A stretch of DNA of 64,000 nucleotides. Source: Stenotrophomonas hibiscicola ATCC 19867. GTDB taxonomy: Bacteria; Pseudomonadota; Gammaproteobacteria; Xanthomonadales; Xanthomonadaceae. The position numbers were made by a program, and so were the translations under genes. The notes under the pieces are model-generated. The model searched no databases. It saw nothing but the letters and a program-made list of their open reading frames with translations, and was not told the DNA's origin. Of this stretch, positions 52,553-59,439 are shown one piece after another; the stretch's first letter is position 1, and each line of letters starts with the position of its first letter. The stretch spans positions 310,001-374,000 of the forward strand of contig NZ_KB907502.1 of the NCBI RefSeq assembly GCF_000382065.1, read 5' to 3'.

Positions 52553-52628
52553 AAAAAGGGGACGGAGGGGATTAAGCCGCTTTTGCCTTGTATGCCAATT
52601 GCGACTTAATCCCCTCCGTCCCCTTTTT
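52553..52628. repeat. Perfect 24-bp inverted repeat downstream of recJ
   Basis: AAAAAGGGGACGGAGGGGAT.. at 52553-52576 is exactly complementary to 52605-52628, around a 28-nt loop. A partial extra copy of the left arm (AAAAAGGGGACGG) precedes it from 52540. It may end recJ transcription. Confidence 0.8.
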
Positions 52629-52698
52629 GGGGGGGGGCGCCAACCCCATTACGGTTGCTGGTGCGTTCAACGATCCACGATCCCACTGGAGTCCGGTC

Positions 52699-55611
52699 AT
52701 GGTCTTCGCCCGTTGCTGCACTGTGTTGTTGTTGGCCCTTGCGGCTTGGCCCGTTGGCGCACAGTCGCCGACGATCTCCCGGCCGCAGTCCGCCACGCCG
52801 CTGCTGATCGCGCCGGCGGCTGAGCAGCCGGTTCAATTACGACAAGCCCGCATCGAAGGCGAAGTGCAGGCCGGCGTCGCCCAGACCCGGATCACGCTGG
52901 AGTTCCACAACCCGAACCGGCGCGTGCTGGAGGGCGAGCTGCAGTTCCCGCTGGCCGAGGGCCAGCAGATCACCGGCTTCGCGCTGGATATCAACGGCGA
53001 GATGCGTGACGCGGTGCCGGTGCCCAAGGACCGCGGTCGCCAGGTGTTCGAGGAGATCGCCCGCCGCGGCGTCGACCCGGCCCTGCTGGAACAGACCGCC
53101 GGCAATCAGTTCCGCCTGCGCATCTACCCGCTGCCGGCCAGCGGTAGCCGGCGCGTGCAGCTGGTGATCCGCGAACCGCTGGCCTTTGCCGGCCAAGGCT
53201 GGCAGTGGACGCTGCCGCTGCAGTTCGCCGCCGGTGCAGCCTCGGTTGAACTGAAACTGCAGGCCCCCGGTACGGCCACCGCGGGTACGGCGCCCTTCCG
53301 CATCAGCGCGGGCCAGCTGCTGTGGCAGGGCAAGGGCGCGCAGTTGCCGCAGCAGCTGCAGTGGAACCTGCCGGCAGCACGTCAGGCGCAGGTGCAGGTG
53401 GCGCCCTGGCAGGATGGACACTACCTGTTGGCACAGCTGCCGGTGGCGGCCAGCAGCACGCCGCGCACGTTGCCCAGCGAGATCGGCCTGCTGTGGGACG
53501 GCTCCGGTTCGGCGGGACAGCGCGATCGCTCGCGTGAGCTTGCCCTGCTGGATCGCTACTTCGCTGCGATGGGTGACGGCACCGTGGCCTTGACCGTGCT
53601 GCGGGATCGCGCCGAGCCGGTGCGTCGATTCCGTATCCGCGCCGGCAACTGGAGCGAGCTGCGCGCAGCCCTGCAGGCCGTGCGCCCGGACGGTGCCAGC
53701 GCGCTGGCCCAGTGGCAGCCGCGATCGAGCGTGAGGGAATACCTGCTGGTCAGTGATGGCCTGCTGACCTATGGGCCGGAACAGCTGCCGGCGATGGCGC
53801 CGGATCAACGCCTGTTTGCGGTCAGCAGCGCCGGCGCGCGCACCGATGCCGTGCGACTGCGGGGTTGGAGTGAGGCGCATGGCGGCCGTTTCGTCGCGCT
53901 GGGCAAGGATGTCGACGCGGCCGCGCATGCGCTGCTGGCGTCGCCGTTGGATGTGCAGGTCGATGCAGGGCGCGGCGTGCAGGACGTGGTCATCGACCGT
54001 CGCAGTGAAGCCCAGGGTTGGCTGTGGCTGCATGCACGACTGGCAGCTGACGGCGTGCCGATGCGGGTGCGCGTGGGTGGCGGCGAATGGCAGGCGCTGC
54101 CGGCCACGCAGAAAAGCGATGACGGCGAACTGCTGGCCGGCCTGTGGGCGCAGGCGCGCCTGCACCAACTGGCCGTCGACCGCCGCGGCAACCGTGAGGC
54201 CATGCAGCGCCTGTCGCAGCAGTTTGGCCTGGTCGGGCCGGACACCTCGTTGATCGTGCTGGAGACGCTGGAGGATTACCTGCGTTATGCCATCCGTCCG
54301 TCCGGCAAGCTGCGCGCGGACTACGACGCGCGGTTCGCACGGCAGGTGACAGACCGCGCCGCTGCTGATCGCCAGCGCCTGGATGAGCTGGCGGCACGCT
54401 GGAAGGAGCGGCAGCAGTGGTGGAACCGCAGTTGGCCGAAGGGAGCGCCGCCGCACGTGAAGGGTGGGGCACTGGAAGTGGCCTCCGCGGACTACGCGAT
54501 GGAATCGGCGCCGGTGGCGACGCTCGCCGCGCCGCCCCCCGCGGCACCGCCCGCCCCGGCACCGATGGCCGCCGCCGCCGAGCAGCGCATGGAAGCCAGC
54601 AGCGCGCGTGCGCGTCGCTCAGCACCTGCATCGAACATGGCCCTCGATTCAATCACGGTCACTGGTGGCCGTGTCGCTGCGCCCGCTGCCGCCAACGACG
54701 GCCAACTCGGCATCCAGCTGGCGGCCTGGCAGCCGGACTCGGCCATCGCCCGGCGCCTGCGCCAGGGCCCGCCGTCGCAACTCTACGACCGCTATCTGGC
54801 CGAGCGCGATGCCCACGCCGACAGCAGCGCCTTCTTCCTCGATGTGGCCGACCTGCTGCTGGAGCAGGGCCAGCGCGAGCTGGCACTGCGGGTGCTGTCG
54901 AACCTGGCCGAGATGGACCTGGACAACCGGCACCTGCTGCGCGTGCTTGGTTACCGGCTGATGCAGGCCGACGCGCCCGCACTGGCGGTGCCGGTGTTCG
55001 AGCAGGTGCTGGCGATGGGCCAGGAAGAGCCGCAGAGCTTCCGCGACCTGGGCCTGGCGCTGGCAGCGGCCGGCAAGCCGCAGCAGGCGCTTGCGCCGCT
55101 GTACCAGGTGGTGGTGCGGCCGTGGGACAGCCGCTTCGATGGCATCGCCCTGATCGCACTGGATGAGCTGACCAACCTGGTGGCACGCAGCACGCCGCGG
55201 CTGGATACCTCGGCCATCGACCCGCGCCTGCTGCAGGCGATGCCGCTGGACCTGCGGGTGGTGCTGTCGTGGGATGCCGACAACAGCGACATGGACCTGT
55301 GGGTGACCGACCCGAACGGCGAGCGCGCCTACTACGGCAACCGCCTGACCTACCAGGGCGGGCAGATGTCGCAGGACTTCACCGGCGGCTATGGTCCCGA
55401 GCAGTTCTCGCTACGCAATGCCAAGCCGGGCAAGTACAAGGTGGAGGCGAACTACTTCGGCAGCCGCCAGCAGCTGGTGACCGGGGCGACGACGCTGATG
55501 CTGCGCCTGACCACCCACTGGGGCACGTCGAAGCAGAAGGACCAGATGGTCACGATGCGGTTGAAGGACCGCGCCGAAACCGTGCTGGTGGGCGAGTTCG
55601 AGGTGCGTTGA
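52699..55611 (+). CDS. Exported VIT/vWA-like/DUF2135 protein
   Basis: A 970-aa periplasmic protein of unknown role. It has a signal peptide (MVFARCCTVLLLALAAWPVGA), a VIT domain at about 45-170 (VQAGVAQTRITLEFHNPN), a vWA-like region from about 255 with a MIDAS-like DGSGSAG, a Pro/Ala linker, TPR-like helices at about 700-840 and a C-terminal DUF2135 domain (VVLSWDADNSDMDLWVTDPNG). The linker holds a TonB-box-like string, ALDSITVTGG, at about 648-657. Start at 52699 with GGAG 7 nt upstream; an in-frame ATG at 52588 would add non-signal sequence and lie in the repeat. Confidence 0.82.
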   Translation: MVFARCCTVLLLALAAWPVGAQSPTISRPQSATPLLIAPAAEQPVQLRQARIEGEVQAGVAQTRITLEFHNPNRRVLEGELQFPLAEGQQITGFALDINGEMRDAVPVPKDRGRQVFEEIARRGVDPALLEQTAGNQFRLRIYPLPASGSRRVQLVIREPLAFAGQGWQWTLPLQFAAGAASVELKLQAPGTATAGTAPFRISAGQLLWQGKGAQLPQQLQWNLPAARQAQVQVAPWQDGHYLLAQLPVAASSTPRTLPSEIGLLWDGSGSAGQRDRSRELALLDRYFAAMGDGTVALTVLRDRAEPVRRFRIRAGNWSELRAALQAVRPDGASALAQWQPRSSVREYLLVSDGLLTYGPEQLPAMAPDQRLFAVSSAGARTDAVRLRGWSEAHGGRFVALGKDVDAAAHALLASPLDVQVDAGRGVQDVVIDRRSEAQGWLWLHARLAADGVPMRVRVGGGEWQALPATQKSDDGELLAGLWAQARLHQLAVDRRGNREAMQRLSQQFGLVGPDTSLIVLETLEDYLRYAIRPSGKLRADYDARFARQVTDRAAADRQRLDELAARWKERQQWWNRSWPKGAPPHVKGGALEVASADYAMESAPVATLAAPPPAAPPAPAPMAAAAEQRMEASSARARRSAPASNMALDSITVTGGRVAAPAAANDGQLGIQLAAWQPDSAIARRLRQGPPSQLYDRYLAERDAHADSSAFFLDVADLLLEQGQRELALRVLSNLAEMDLDNRHLLRVLGYRLMQADAPALAVPVFEQVLAMGQEEPQSFRDLGLALAAAGKPQQALAPLYQVVVRPWDSRFDGIALIALDELTNLVARSTPRLDTSAIDPRLLQAMPLDLRVVLSWDADNSDMDLWVTDPNGERAYYGNRLTYQGGQMSQDFTGGYGPEQFSLRNAKPGKYKVEANYFGSRQQLVTGATTLMLRLTTHWGTSKQKDQMVTMRLKDRAETVLVGEFEVR

Positions 55612-55657
55612 TCACTCGGACGCCCTTGTGGAGTCGAGCTTGCTCGACTGCCTCAAT

Positions 55658-55717
55658 GTAGAGCCGAGCCTGCGCTCGGCTCATGGCAGAAGCAGCCGAG
55701 CGTGGGCTCGGCTCTAC
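55658..55717. repeat. Inverted SMAG/REP pair, left bracket of the low-GC gene
   Basis: A 60-bp pair starting GTAGAGCCGAGCC and ending CTCGGCTCTAC, linker GGCAGAAGC. It matches the pair at 57148-57207 at 55 of 60 positions, including the linker. Confidence 0.88.
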
Positions 55718-55721
55718 ACTG

Positions 55722-56879
55722 CTAGTCTGCGCGCATCCAAGCGTCTAGTTGTCTGGCCAGCGTGCGATTCTTGTGGGCAGACGCAACCGAATCCGTGCCT
55801 GGAACCAAATTGATACCCAGGCTTGTATTTATCTGCTTGACCCATTCGGGAAAGTGATCAAGCGTGGCGCCGATGATTGGCGGCAGTTGGAAGTCGTTGC
55901 TGGTGGGTCTGTCCCGGTAGGCGACGTAGGAGCCATCACCCGAGGTCAGGTTGATTGACCAAGGGCTGTCAGGCCAACTGTTGAGGGTCAGGCTGATCCG
56001 AGGATGTCCGCTCTCGCTGCTGTACTCGCCGTCCTGATAGAGGGTGATTCTGGCGCTCCAGTCTCGGATGTTCTGCACACGCCAACCCTGGCGCTGCACC
56101 AGCTGGACAGCGTCCCCCGCCATGATCCGCATGTCATGCAGTTGCGCCAGATTTTCACAAAGAGCGACGTACTCGCTGTTCTCCGCGCAGTGTGGTCGGG
56201 CGGCTTGGGCAGTCAGGTAAAGCACGGAGAGCGCGTGGTTTCGATCTCCGTCTCCAGACCACTTCCTGACCATCAGGTCATGTGCCATCGGGATGCGCGT
56301 GTCCTCATTGAGTTGTGCAATGAGTGCCATGCCCCAATAGAGGATTGGCCCCATTTCCTTGATATCGTGTTGCAGGGATCGGCCGGCTTCGAGAATGATC
56401 GGGGCCGACGAGCGGAATGGAAGGAATTTTTCGACCTTCTCTCGCTGGGCATGGAACGATTGGTACTTCCTGCAATGCTCCACCAGATGGGTGCGCTGTT
56501 TCAGGTCGGCTGCATTTGCAACCGTGCCACTTGGCAGCTCGCCATGCTCATTGAAGCCGAAGCAGAACAGGTGCTCGAGGCTTCGGCTGGGTGGGCGCGT
56601 GCCGTAGCCCATCGGGAGCTTTGTGAGTTCCAGATAGGCTGCAACAAGGGTGGGAAAGTCTCTCTCAGGGAGTCCGGCGACCTTCCAGTCACCCACGCGC
56701 AGCCAGTGGAAGTAGAAACGTTGCAGCAGATCCCCAGACAAGTGGCGACCTGCTTTCGGTGCAAGTGCTCCGAGTTGGTAGTGATAGCTCGGGTAAATGT
56801 CGCCTTGACATTCCTCAGCAAGCGCAGCTTCTTCCGAGTTAACAAAGGCGACCAGCAGATTGATGTCGGATTGATCCAT
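55722..56879 (-). CDS. Orphan protein of unknown function, atypical base composition
   Basis: A 385-aa predicted soluble protein; no family recognised. It is acidic at the N-terminus (MDQSDINLLVAFVNSEEAAL), has Trp/Phe-rich segments (LLQRFYFHWLRVGDWKVAG, MGPILYWGMALIAQ), and no signal or membrane helix. The start at 56879 has GGGAG 7 nt upstream. GC content and codon use are clearly lower than in the neighbours, and it lies between two 60-bp REP pairs that are nearly identical, so it is probably acquired. Confidence 0.7.
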   Translation of the reverse strand: MDQSDINLLVAFVNSEEAALAEECQGDIYPSYHYQLGALAPKAGRHLSGDLLQRFYFHWLRVGDWKVAGLPERDFPTLVAAYLELTKLPMGYGTRPPSRSLEHLFCFGFNEHGELPSGTVANAADLKQRTHLVEHCRKYQSFHAQREKVEKFLPFRSSAPIILEAGRSLQHDIKEMGPILYWGMALIAQLNEDTRIPMAHDLMVRKWSGDGDRNHALSVLYLTAQAARPHCAENSEYVALCENLAQLHDMRIMAGDAVQLVQRQGWRVQNIRDWSARITLYQDGEYSSESGHPRISLTLNSWPDSPWSINLTSGDGSYVAYRDRPTSNDFQLPPIIGATLDHFPEWVKQINTSLGINLVPGTDSVASAHKNRTLARQLDAWMRAD

Positions 56880-57203
56880 TGCAGCGCTCCCGGCAAAAAG
56901 TGCCTTCCGTCGAAAAGGCGACTTCCTACACTGGCAGGGCGCTGTTGAGCTTCCAATGCGAATAGTTGCAAATGCCATGAACATGCTGCGTATCCGTTGC
57001 CCGTACGAGGTCCCGTGTGGAGTCCCCAGCATCGATGCTGGTCTATCAGCCAGCCAGCACGTCAGCCAAAATGCGCCGGCGCTGGTGCGTCCGTGACAGT
57101 GCCATCAGTAGCGGCCAGCCAGAAGTGGATTGCCGGCCGGTGGACGTGTAGAGCCGAGCCCATGCTCGGCTCAGGGCAGAAGCAGCCGAGCGTGGACTCG
57201 GCT
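56880..57203. other. Intergenic stretch upstream of the low-GC gene
   Basis: Holds the promoter region of the low-GC gene and, at its right end, the second REP pair. No gene or clear promoter was recognised. Confidence 0.6.
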
Positions 57204-57207
57204 CTAC
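57148..57207. repeat. Inverted SMAG/REP pair, right bracket; supplies acyltransferase stop codon
   Basis: A 60-bp pair starting GTAGAGCCGAGCC and ending CTCGGCTCTAC, in the same orientation as the pair at 55658. The final CTA (57204-57206) is the TAG stop codon of the minus-strand acyltransferase gene. Confidence 0.88.
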
Positions 57208-58403
57208 AACCGCGCAGCGTGTGCAACCGGCCACGCTGGCGGATTCGCACGCAGGCCGAACAGCGGCCGCAGCCAACGCACGCGTCGGATCAGCAGTTCG
57301 TGGATCAGCAGGCAGCCGCCGACAGTACCGGCCAGCAGCAGGGCCGGTTCCATCCACCAGCCCAACTGAAGTGGCTTGAGCCAGAACAGCAGGGCGATGA
57401 TCAGGCTCTGGTGCAGCATGTACCACGGATAGATGGCTTCGGTGCAGTACGGCAGCCAGCGGAACGGGCGATCGAGGAAGACCTTTCCCCAGCCGAGGAT
57501 GGCCAGCAGCGCGGTCCATACGTAAAGCGACTGGCTGGCCCGGCCCTGCAGGTCCCAGAACGGTTCGGGCCATTGCCGCAGCGGGGAATCGGCGGGCAGT
57601 ACCTGACCGAGGATGCGCAACCCCAGATACCAGCCGACGGCAGCCAGCGCCAGCCATAGCGTGGTGCGGCGCAGGGCGACCACGCGCTCCCAGAACACCG
57701 GTTCACGACCCAGCAGGTAGCCGGCCAGGAACACCGTCGCGTACTTCGCGTGCTGGTACCAGTCGCCGAGCAGGGCATTGGTGGACGGGTAGATCGGCTC
57801 CAGCCAGATCACCCAGGCCAGCAACAGGGTGGACGGAAGGCCGATCAGCAGCATCGGCGATGCTGCGCAGAGCGCCATCGCGCGGCGAACCACCGCCGTT
57901 CCCAGCAATGGCATCAACAGGGCCAAGGCCAGCGTGTAGTTCCAAAGATAGGCCAGGTACCACAGGTGGTTCCAGGTGATGCCGTACTGCCAGCCGGCGA
58001 AGCTGCCTTCCGGCCACGGCCGCACCTGCCAGTAGCGCAGCAGGAAGTGGCCGAAGCCGGGTGCCACGTGGCCGTTGGCCACGCCTTCGCAATAGGGCTG
58101 GATCGGCACGATCACGAACATGCCGAACAGCAGCGGCAGCAGCAGCCGCCAGGTGCGCAGGCCGGCGAAGCGCAGCAACCTGCCTTCCGGCCGCATCAGC
58201 GCGATGGCGATACCCGAGATCAGGAACAGCAGCGACATCCGCCAGCGGTTGACGAACAGCATCGGCCACTGCAGCCATTCGGCGGTATGCACGCTCTTGA
58301 GGTGAAAGCCCCAGTCGTCCACGTAGGCCATGGCGGTGTGGTAGAGGATCAGCAGGGCGAAGGCGAACACGCGCAGGGCGTCGATGTCGTAGCGTCGGGT
58401 CAT
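57204..58403 (-). CDS. Acyltransferase-3 family membrane protein
   Basis: A 399-aa inner-membrane protein with about 10-12 helices that transfers acyl groups to an unknown carbohydrate or lipid. The N-terminal motif YDIDALRVFAFALLILYHTA has the catalytic His region of the OafA/MdoC family; later WNHLWYLAYLWNY. Start MTRRYDIDALRV at 58403. The stop codon lies in a SMAG element, so the C-terminus may have been reset by repeat insertion. Divergent from the LytTR gene. Confidence 0.85.
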   Translation of the reverse strand: MTRRYDIDALRVFAFALLILYHTAMAYVDDWGFHLKSVHTAEWLQWPMLFVNRWRMSLLFLISGIAIALMRPEGRLLRFAGLRTWRLLLPLLFGMFVIVPIQPYCEGVANGHVAPGFGHFLLRYWQVRPWPEGSFAGWQYGITWNHLWYLAYLWNYTLALALLMPLLGTAVVRRAMALCAASPMLLIGLPSTLLLAWVIWLEPIYPSTNALLGDWYQHAKYATVFLAGYLLGREPVFWERVVALRRTTLWLALAAVGWYLGLRILGQVLPADSPLRQWPEPFWDLQGRASQSLYVWTALLAILGWGKVFLDRPFRWLPYCTEAIYPWYMLHQSLIIALLFWLKPLQLGWWMEPALLLAGTVGGCLLIHELLIRRVRWLRPLFGLRANPPAWPVAHAARL

Positions 58404-58566
58404 GGTGATGGTGTGCCGGAGAGTCGAGCCAAGGTGACGCCGCCCGGTCCGTGCGGCGACTGGCAAGGGGCCGCTGGAACCGACGCAGTGACCAATGGCG
58501 GGGGTGGTGGGACCAATGGAGCCGCTACCCTTTGTCCCTTGAGGCAGGCTGGAGCACCGCAACGAC

Positions 58567-59439
58567 ATGGATGCAGCAATGACCCAGGGCCGACCATCGC
58601 GCTGGCGTACTTCAACCCGCCTGCTGGTATGGGCGGCGATCCTGTCGGCCTCGGCAGTGACCAATGCGCTGGTGGAAGTGATGGACGCCAGTCGCCGCGG
58701 CGCCGATCTCGGGCTGTGGGAGCCGATGATCTGGGAGTTCAGCAGCCTCGGCCTGGTCCTGTTGACCCTGCCGCTGCTGTGGTGGGGCTGCGAGCGCTGG
58801 CCGCTGCATGCCGATACCTGGAAGCAGCGGTTGCCGCTGTATCTGCTGGCCAGCGTCGGCTGGTCGCTGCTGCACGTGGTGGGGATGGTGCTGCTGCGGC
58901 ACCTGGCCTACGGGTCGCTGGGCCATCGCTACCAGGATGATGCCGGCTGGCTGGAGCGTTTTGCCTACGAATACCTGAAGGATGTACGCACGTTTGCGAT
59001 ATTCGTGGCACTGGAGCACTTTGCCAGCTGGTTCGGCCGGCGCAGGCAGGGCGAGGCGAGCCTGCTGGCCGAGCCGGACGTCGGCCCGCCGGTGGAGCCG
59101 GTCGAGCGCCCCCAGCACTTCCTGGTGCGCAAGCTGGGCAAGGAGTTCCTGGTCGCCACGGCGGACGTGGAGTACGCCCAGGCCGCAGGGAACTATGTGA
59201 ACCTGCGGGTACGCGGCCACGACTATCCGCTGCGGATCACCATGGCAGTGCTGGAGCAGCGGCTCGACCCGGGCGAGTTCCTGCGCCCGCACCGCAGCTG
59301 GCTGATCCATCGGGGCCAGCTGCGCTCGATCGAGCCGCTGGACGGTGGCGAGGCCCTGCTGCATATGGCCGACGGGGCGAAAGTGCCGTGCAGCCGGCGC
59401 CAGCTGCCGCTGCTGCGGCAGGCGCTGGGGGCAGGGTGA
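58567..59439 (+). CDS. Membrane-bound LytTR-family transcriptional regulator
   Basis: A 290-aa protein with about four N-terminal membrane helices (residues 15-160) and a C-terminal LytTR DNA-binding domain at about 185-285 (YAQAAGNYVNLRVRGHDYPL, FLRPHRSWLIHRGQL). It has no receiver domain, so it is a one-component membrane regulator. Divergent from the acyltransferase (163-bp gap), which is a likely target. A second in-frame ATG (MTQGRPSRW) four codons later is an alternative start. Confidence 0.85.
   Translation: MDAAMTQGRPSRWRTSTRLLVWAAILSASAVTNALVEVMDASRRGADLGLWEPMIWEFSSLGLVLLTLPLLWWGCERWPLHADTWKQRLPLYLLASVGWSLLHVVGMVLLRHLAYGSLGHRYQDDAGWLERFAYEYLKDVRTFAIFVALEHFASWFGRRRQGEASLLAEPDVGPPVEPVERPQHFLVRKLGKEFLVATADVEYAQAAGNYVNLRVRGHDYPLRITMAVLEQRLDPGEFLRPHRSWLIHRGQLRSIEPLDGGEALLHMADGAKVPCSRRQLPLLRQALGAG

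Follow-up and report, generated by a model that had tools for sequence, protein, structure and literature searches.

Repeats of the GTAG type lie mostly near the 3′ ends of unidirectional or convergent genes (PMC3733652), and in the GTAG-type REP dimers described together with a RAYT two inverted units carry outer GTAG tags and recur in many copies (PMC3733652, PMC2817692). In Neisseria meningitidis porA, a gene lying between repeat copies, is lost through REP-cluster recombination, according to the work as cited in PMC3352162. Orphan immunity and polyimmunity loci hold immunity-type genes without an adjacent toxin (PMC3482391; the Vibrio cholerae arrays, PMC5361080; the orphan Tdi genes of Bacteroidales, PMC10470768), set in the same orientation at short spacing, with a content that varies between close genomes and spreads horizontally. 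Among the immunity families, Imm45 is listed with ColE3-type toxins by Zhang et al. (PMC3482391). The window analysed here, a stretch of 64,000 nucleotides from Stenotrophomonas hibiscicola ATCC 19867, contains a gene for a 385-aa protein that is bracketed by two REP dimers, an arrangement which an earlier note on this DNA had read as gene capture through the REP pair. The account that we favour instead, and hold to be probable though well short of certain, is that an orphan immunity-type gene was acquired into the variable slot with which an operon ends and that the dimers are old 3′-end repeats, acting probably as points of deletion and not as capturers.

The orphan gene (55722..56879, minus strand) is intact and has a GC content of 57.5%, against about 65–72% in its surroundings, and thus the atypical composition ascribed to it earlier; its codon positions stand at 63/43/67% GC, and it is under purifying selection (dN/dS 0.16–0.21). 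It is a real gene that was acquired from outside, and the foreign origin proposed in the earlier note is supported by its sporadic occurrence in 5 of 91 Stenotrophomonas genomes (this one, G024, G033, G032 and G003). Identity to the copy of this genome is 77% for G024 and 65–67% for the other three. The protein belongs to no recognised family, as had been said of it: searches of Pfam, its Imm families included, of NCBIfam and of PADLOC returned no match, the best match in PHROGs had an E value of 0.48, and those in the PDB were at chance level (E 0.06 or worse). Neither the orphan nor its Rhizobium relative matches PF08887 or PF08906 (GAD-like / Tdi1), and AlphaFold gave poor models of the orphan, with a pLDDT of 44 from 5 sequences and 50 from 6 sequences. 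No relatives were found in phage records and viral contigs, and profile searches of samples of the order, the class and the phylum found only one relative outside Stenotrophomonas, to the N-terminal half. At L102/L114, from another family of the same order (G139), a shorter protein akin to the orphan's N-terminal part adjoins the gene of a CHAT-like protein, which suggests a two-part build of the orphan.

The only full-length relatives found outside Stenotrophomonas are those on Rhizobium plasmids, where they occur in 17 records with 26–31% identity and E values down to 7e-40; the relatives include WP_011649248.1. In all four annotated Rhizobium records whose island context was read, the relative is the last gene of a T6SS effector island and follows immunity genes of the GAD-like/Tdi1 type, and the islands contain tssI/VgrG, PAAR-like or DUF4150 genes together with hypothetical ones. 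At L109 the partner that overlaps the relative has a match to GAD-like (E 1.8e-23) and a weak one to the Tdi1 C-terminal domain, with a Tox-PAAR-like protein encoded upstream. The orphan is kin to genes of effector-immunity islands, and no toxin gene lies beside it, its neighbours being the genes of the VIT protein, PAP2, the acyltransferase and Imm45. Judged from this gene neighbourhood, the simplest reading is that of a putative orphan immunity gene of a yet undescribed family.

To place the gene in its genus, DNA of the VIT gene was searched in 90 Stenotrophomonas genomes, one per species, and the 60 loci that extend past prfB were read. They run from VIT through the slot, PAP2, the acyltransferase and LytTR to prfB, and almost all parts between VIT and prfB are missing or substituted in some genome. 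The VIT gene (52588..55611, plus strand; an ORF with the Pfam domains VIT and DUF2135, its start codon uncertain) is conserved in its DNA throughout the genus and borders the variable slot on the left, in convergent orientation. The acyltransferase gene (Acyl_transf_3; 57204..58664, minus strand) is given here as its longest ORF, the true start probably being lower. PAP2 (PF01569) is intact in 21 genomes, and in PAP2-bearing genomes such as G015 its start follows the acyltransferase stop by 9 nt, a gap that suggests a single operon. In the window a decayed remnant of this PAP2-family gene lies at about 57005..57120 (minus strand, approximate limits), which corrects the earlier description of the interval as holding a single gene.

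Place and orientation of the orphan agree in all five carriers: it lies between VIT and PAP2, or a PAP2 remnant, and comes after a 22-mer (GCATTTGCAACTATTCGCATTG; 56954..56975, minus strand, in the window) that is possibly a promoter or operator element. The idea that the 22-mer is a dispersed site was rejected, as it occurs only once in this genome. PAP2 was lost in G003 through a different deletion than in this genome, and in G032 and G033 the orphan adjoins Imm45 (PF15572, E 3.7e-23). Imm45 homologues also fill the slot beside VIT without the orphan at L068 (G065), L070 (G073) and L073 (G066), almost directly after PAP2 in G065 and G066 and behind a variant of the 22-mer region in G073. In other loci (L036, L048, L059, L066 and others) a REP unit from a different class holds the TAG stop of VIT in its GTAG tag, and REP units have therefore replaced the gene end in several genomes.

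The two dimers, neither of which was assigned a strand, are each built of two inverted GTAG-REP units. Dimer A (55657..55718) has the 12-nt linker CATGGCAGAAGC and dimer B (57147..57208) the linker CAGGGCAGAAGC, and each is predicted to fold into a single long hairpin (z about –8; –8.5 for A and –8.2 for B). The 62-nt copies are 92% identical in direct orientation, linker included, and over the 60 bp quoted in the earlier note its match of 55/60 was reproduced. The left flank of B (57124..57146, likewise without strand) aligns with its counterpart at dimer B in G024, G009 and G063. Dimer A ends 3 nt away from the stop codon of the 385-aa gene and B provides the TAG stop of the acyltransferase gene, so that both occupy ordinary REP sites at gene 3′ ends.

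As inverted palindromic, GTAG-tagged units with many genomic copies, A and B are GTAG-type REP dimers, and the genome contains at least 96 strict dimers of their class. Our comparison took in 47 of these at least 96, among which other 60-nt dimers agree with each other or with A and B at 50–54 of 60 positions, against 55 of 60 for A and B. The linkers of A and B are identical at 11 of 12 positions, the next best pair among the 78 pairs of the 13 dimers with a 12-nt linker at 9 of 12, and none of the other dimers with a linker this long in the genome has the A/B linker. The dimer class is thus common and the linker is the one unusual feature of the pair. A gene bracketed by dimers is also not rare in this genome, because the 47 strict dimers compared include 7 cases of neighbours at most about 3.3 kb apart.

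Across ten genomes the linkers at the locus are alike at a mean of 9.4 of 12 positions, compared with 5.1 of 12 against other dimers of this genome; such likeness makes common descent from a single local element probable for A, B and the dimers that other species have here. Dimer A comes closest to G083, whose single dimer agrees with it at 59/61, against only 56/61 for B, while B is closest to the B of G024 and to the single dimer of G021 (57/61 each). Because the distance between A and B about equals the distances to dimers of other species, their duplication is old and not recent. One of the five Y1_Tnp genes in this genome (G000:C6:349649-349885; L107:1333-1788) has REPs of exactly the A/B class (GTAGAGCCGAGC) on its flanks and is the likely cognate RAYT; it encodes 151 aa and is apparently intact.

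Several loci show the dimers in altered form. At the VIT 3′ end of L043 (G062) and L057 (G024) they seem collapsed into single hairpins, which fits slippage between internal direct repeats of the dimer (GCTCGGCT). In L052, from the sister species of G024 (G038), REP dimer A carries an IS110-family element (PF01548, PF02371) inserted in its right arm, at about 700–2040. In L037 and L039 (G043 and G045) two dimer-like REP units surround a short stretch only, without PAP2 or the orphan; the stretch resembles a copied acyltransferase tail, a similarity that is not significant (p 0.08).

On a VIT-prfB tree of 61 rows, the distribution of the orphan requires five changes. A block of about 1.6 kb, comprising Imm45 and the orphan, is about 99% identical between G032 and G033, against mostly 64–91% in the adjoining PAP2; between these two genomes dS is 0.04 in the orphan, while VIT and prfB stand at 0.15–0.20 and PAP2 at 0.55. 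Between this genome and G024 the dS of the orphan is 0.71 compared with 0.14–0.26. These contrasting dS values and the shared block indicate that alleles appear to arrive by horizontal transfer without dimers, and the sequences point to passage of the Imm45 and orphan block between species without their help. After entry, orphan alleles appear to be retained by purifying selection.

If the REPs had captured the gene, a segment with the gene and one dimer would have integrated by recombination at a resident dimer, leaving a dimer on both sides. The precise empty site with one REP pair that the earlier note proposed to look for does exist in five related species (a single intact dimer in G048, G083, G035, G068 and G021, with a decayed version in G023); its left flank is that of A and its right flank that of B, and G048 is the sister genome of this one (SH-aLRT 97). 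Together with the common linker of A and B as true copies and the apparently intact RAYT with this REP class at its flanks, these sites speak for capture, but a single-dimer site is expected after deletion via the dimers as well as after insertion. The gene, moreover, occupies the same place without a flanking dimer pair in all four other carriers: no REP dimer stands next to it in G032, G033 and G003, and in G024 there is one REP unit on its left and a dimer on its right only past PAP2. Capture also sits poorly with the resident PAP2 remnant within the interval and with the age of the A/B duplication. Dimers at both the A and B positions are likewise seen in genomes without the orphan, and B stands at the PAP2–acyltransferase junction of orphan-less genomes such as G009, G063, G073 and G066. 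The earlier note had regarded capture as unlikely if the gene were present here in all Stenotrophomonas with the REP pairs varying independently; the REP pairs do vary independently of the gene, while the gene is far from being in all Stenotrophomonas. We thus consider REP capture of the orphan unlikely, with little probability left to it. In G024 and G034 copies of the acyltransferase tail clearly stand on both sides of B, or of its remaining half, the outcome to be expected from recombination between an allele with PAP2 and one with a dimer; in the window the copy left of B is unrecognisable (p 0.24). Deletion of the interval between dimers is plausible from the comparison of sequences. That a self-duplicated local REP dimer serves as a reusable crossover site, the slot being emptied and refilled dimer by dimer in a REP-based cassette exchange, perhaps aided by the RAYT, strikes us as very improbable.

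It is also rather unlikely, in our estimate, that a single insertion in the PAP2 3′ end, with a short target duplication, brought the gene in, the dimers being unrelated to gain and loss. A 32–33 bp direct repeat of the PAP2 3′ end does flank the gene in G032, G033 and G003 (p 0.001), and PAP2 leads straight to Imm45 in G065 and G066, but a PAP2-Imm45 allele may have supplied the second repeat copy through recombination, neither this genome nor G024 shows the repeat, and the segment is without a recombinase gene. As to function, the orphan could be an adaptor or effector of the T6SS islands. A role of the Rhizobium relative as island effector, adaptor or chaperone, kept by the Stenotrophomonas gene, is conceivable though doubtful: position in an island is no proof of immunity, and the protein, at 385 aa, has a large size for an immunity role, which counts against the immunity reading, and is without an immunity-family match. 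Against such a role, the relative comes after tandem immunity genes at the island end, Imm45 adjoins the orphan in Stenotrophomonas, and a TssK search of this genome gave no match.

Under the favoured account, an orphan immunity-type gene, kin to the last gene of the Rhizobium T6SS islands, would have been acquired horizontally and would sit in a variable slot where the 3′ end of the acyltransferase-PAP2 operon converges on the VIT gene. Its spread inside the genus would have gone mainly through recombination in flanking DNA, with one block of Imm45 and the orphan presumably passed between species. The REP dimers would be old, sitting at the 3′ ends of the genes to either side after a local copying event in the distant past; they would not be capturers, and recombination or replication slippage between them would be the most likely route by which the interval was deleted to give single-dimer sites. 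We infer the immunity function, the direction of every gain and loss, and deletion by recombination between A and B. At this locus a REP-bracketed capture that looks flawless, complete with an exact empty site, proves instructive: with several alleles side by side, old 3′-end repeats and repeated recombination explain it better. The most useful outcome is the link to T6SS effector-immunity islands: an unnamed protein family, a candidate new immunity family, is now tied to them and occurs as an orphan in a TssK-less Stenotrophomonas genome.

Compared with the described systems, the locus resembles orphan immunity and polyimmunity loci in all the traits listed at the outset, but it has just one or two genes, lies at the end of an acyltransferase-PAP2 operon and not in a T6SS cluster, and its orphan belongs to an undescribed family with a putative immunity role. 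The Rhizobium relatives come directly after or overlap genes of the GAD-like / Tdi1 T6SS immunity family (PF08887, PF08906), whereas the orphan itself is without a sequence match to it. As in other GTAG-type REP dimers with a RAYT, A and B have outer GTAG tags, inverted units, positions at gene 3′ ends and many copies, and a Y1 transposase gene of this genome has REPs of their class on its flanks; unlike them, A and B have a common linker, the one being a local copy of the other. With porA loss, as far as the citing account describes it, the locus shares a gene between repeat copies and the existence of gene-less alleles, while the Stenotrophomonas deletion is deduced from a comparison of species.
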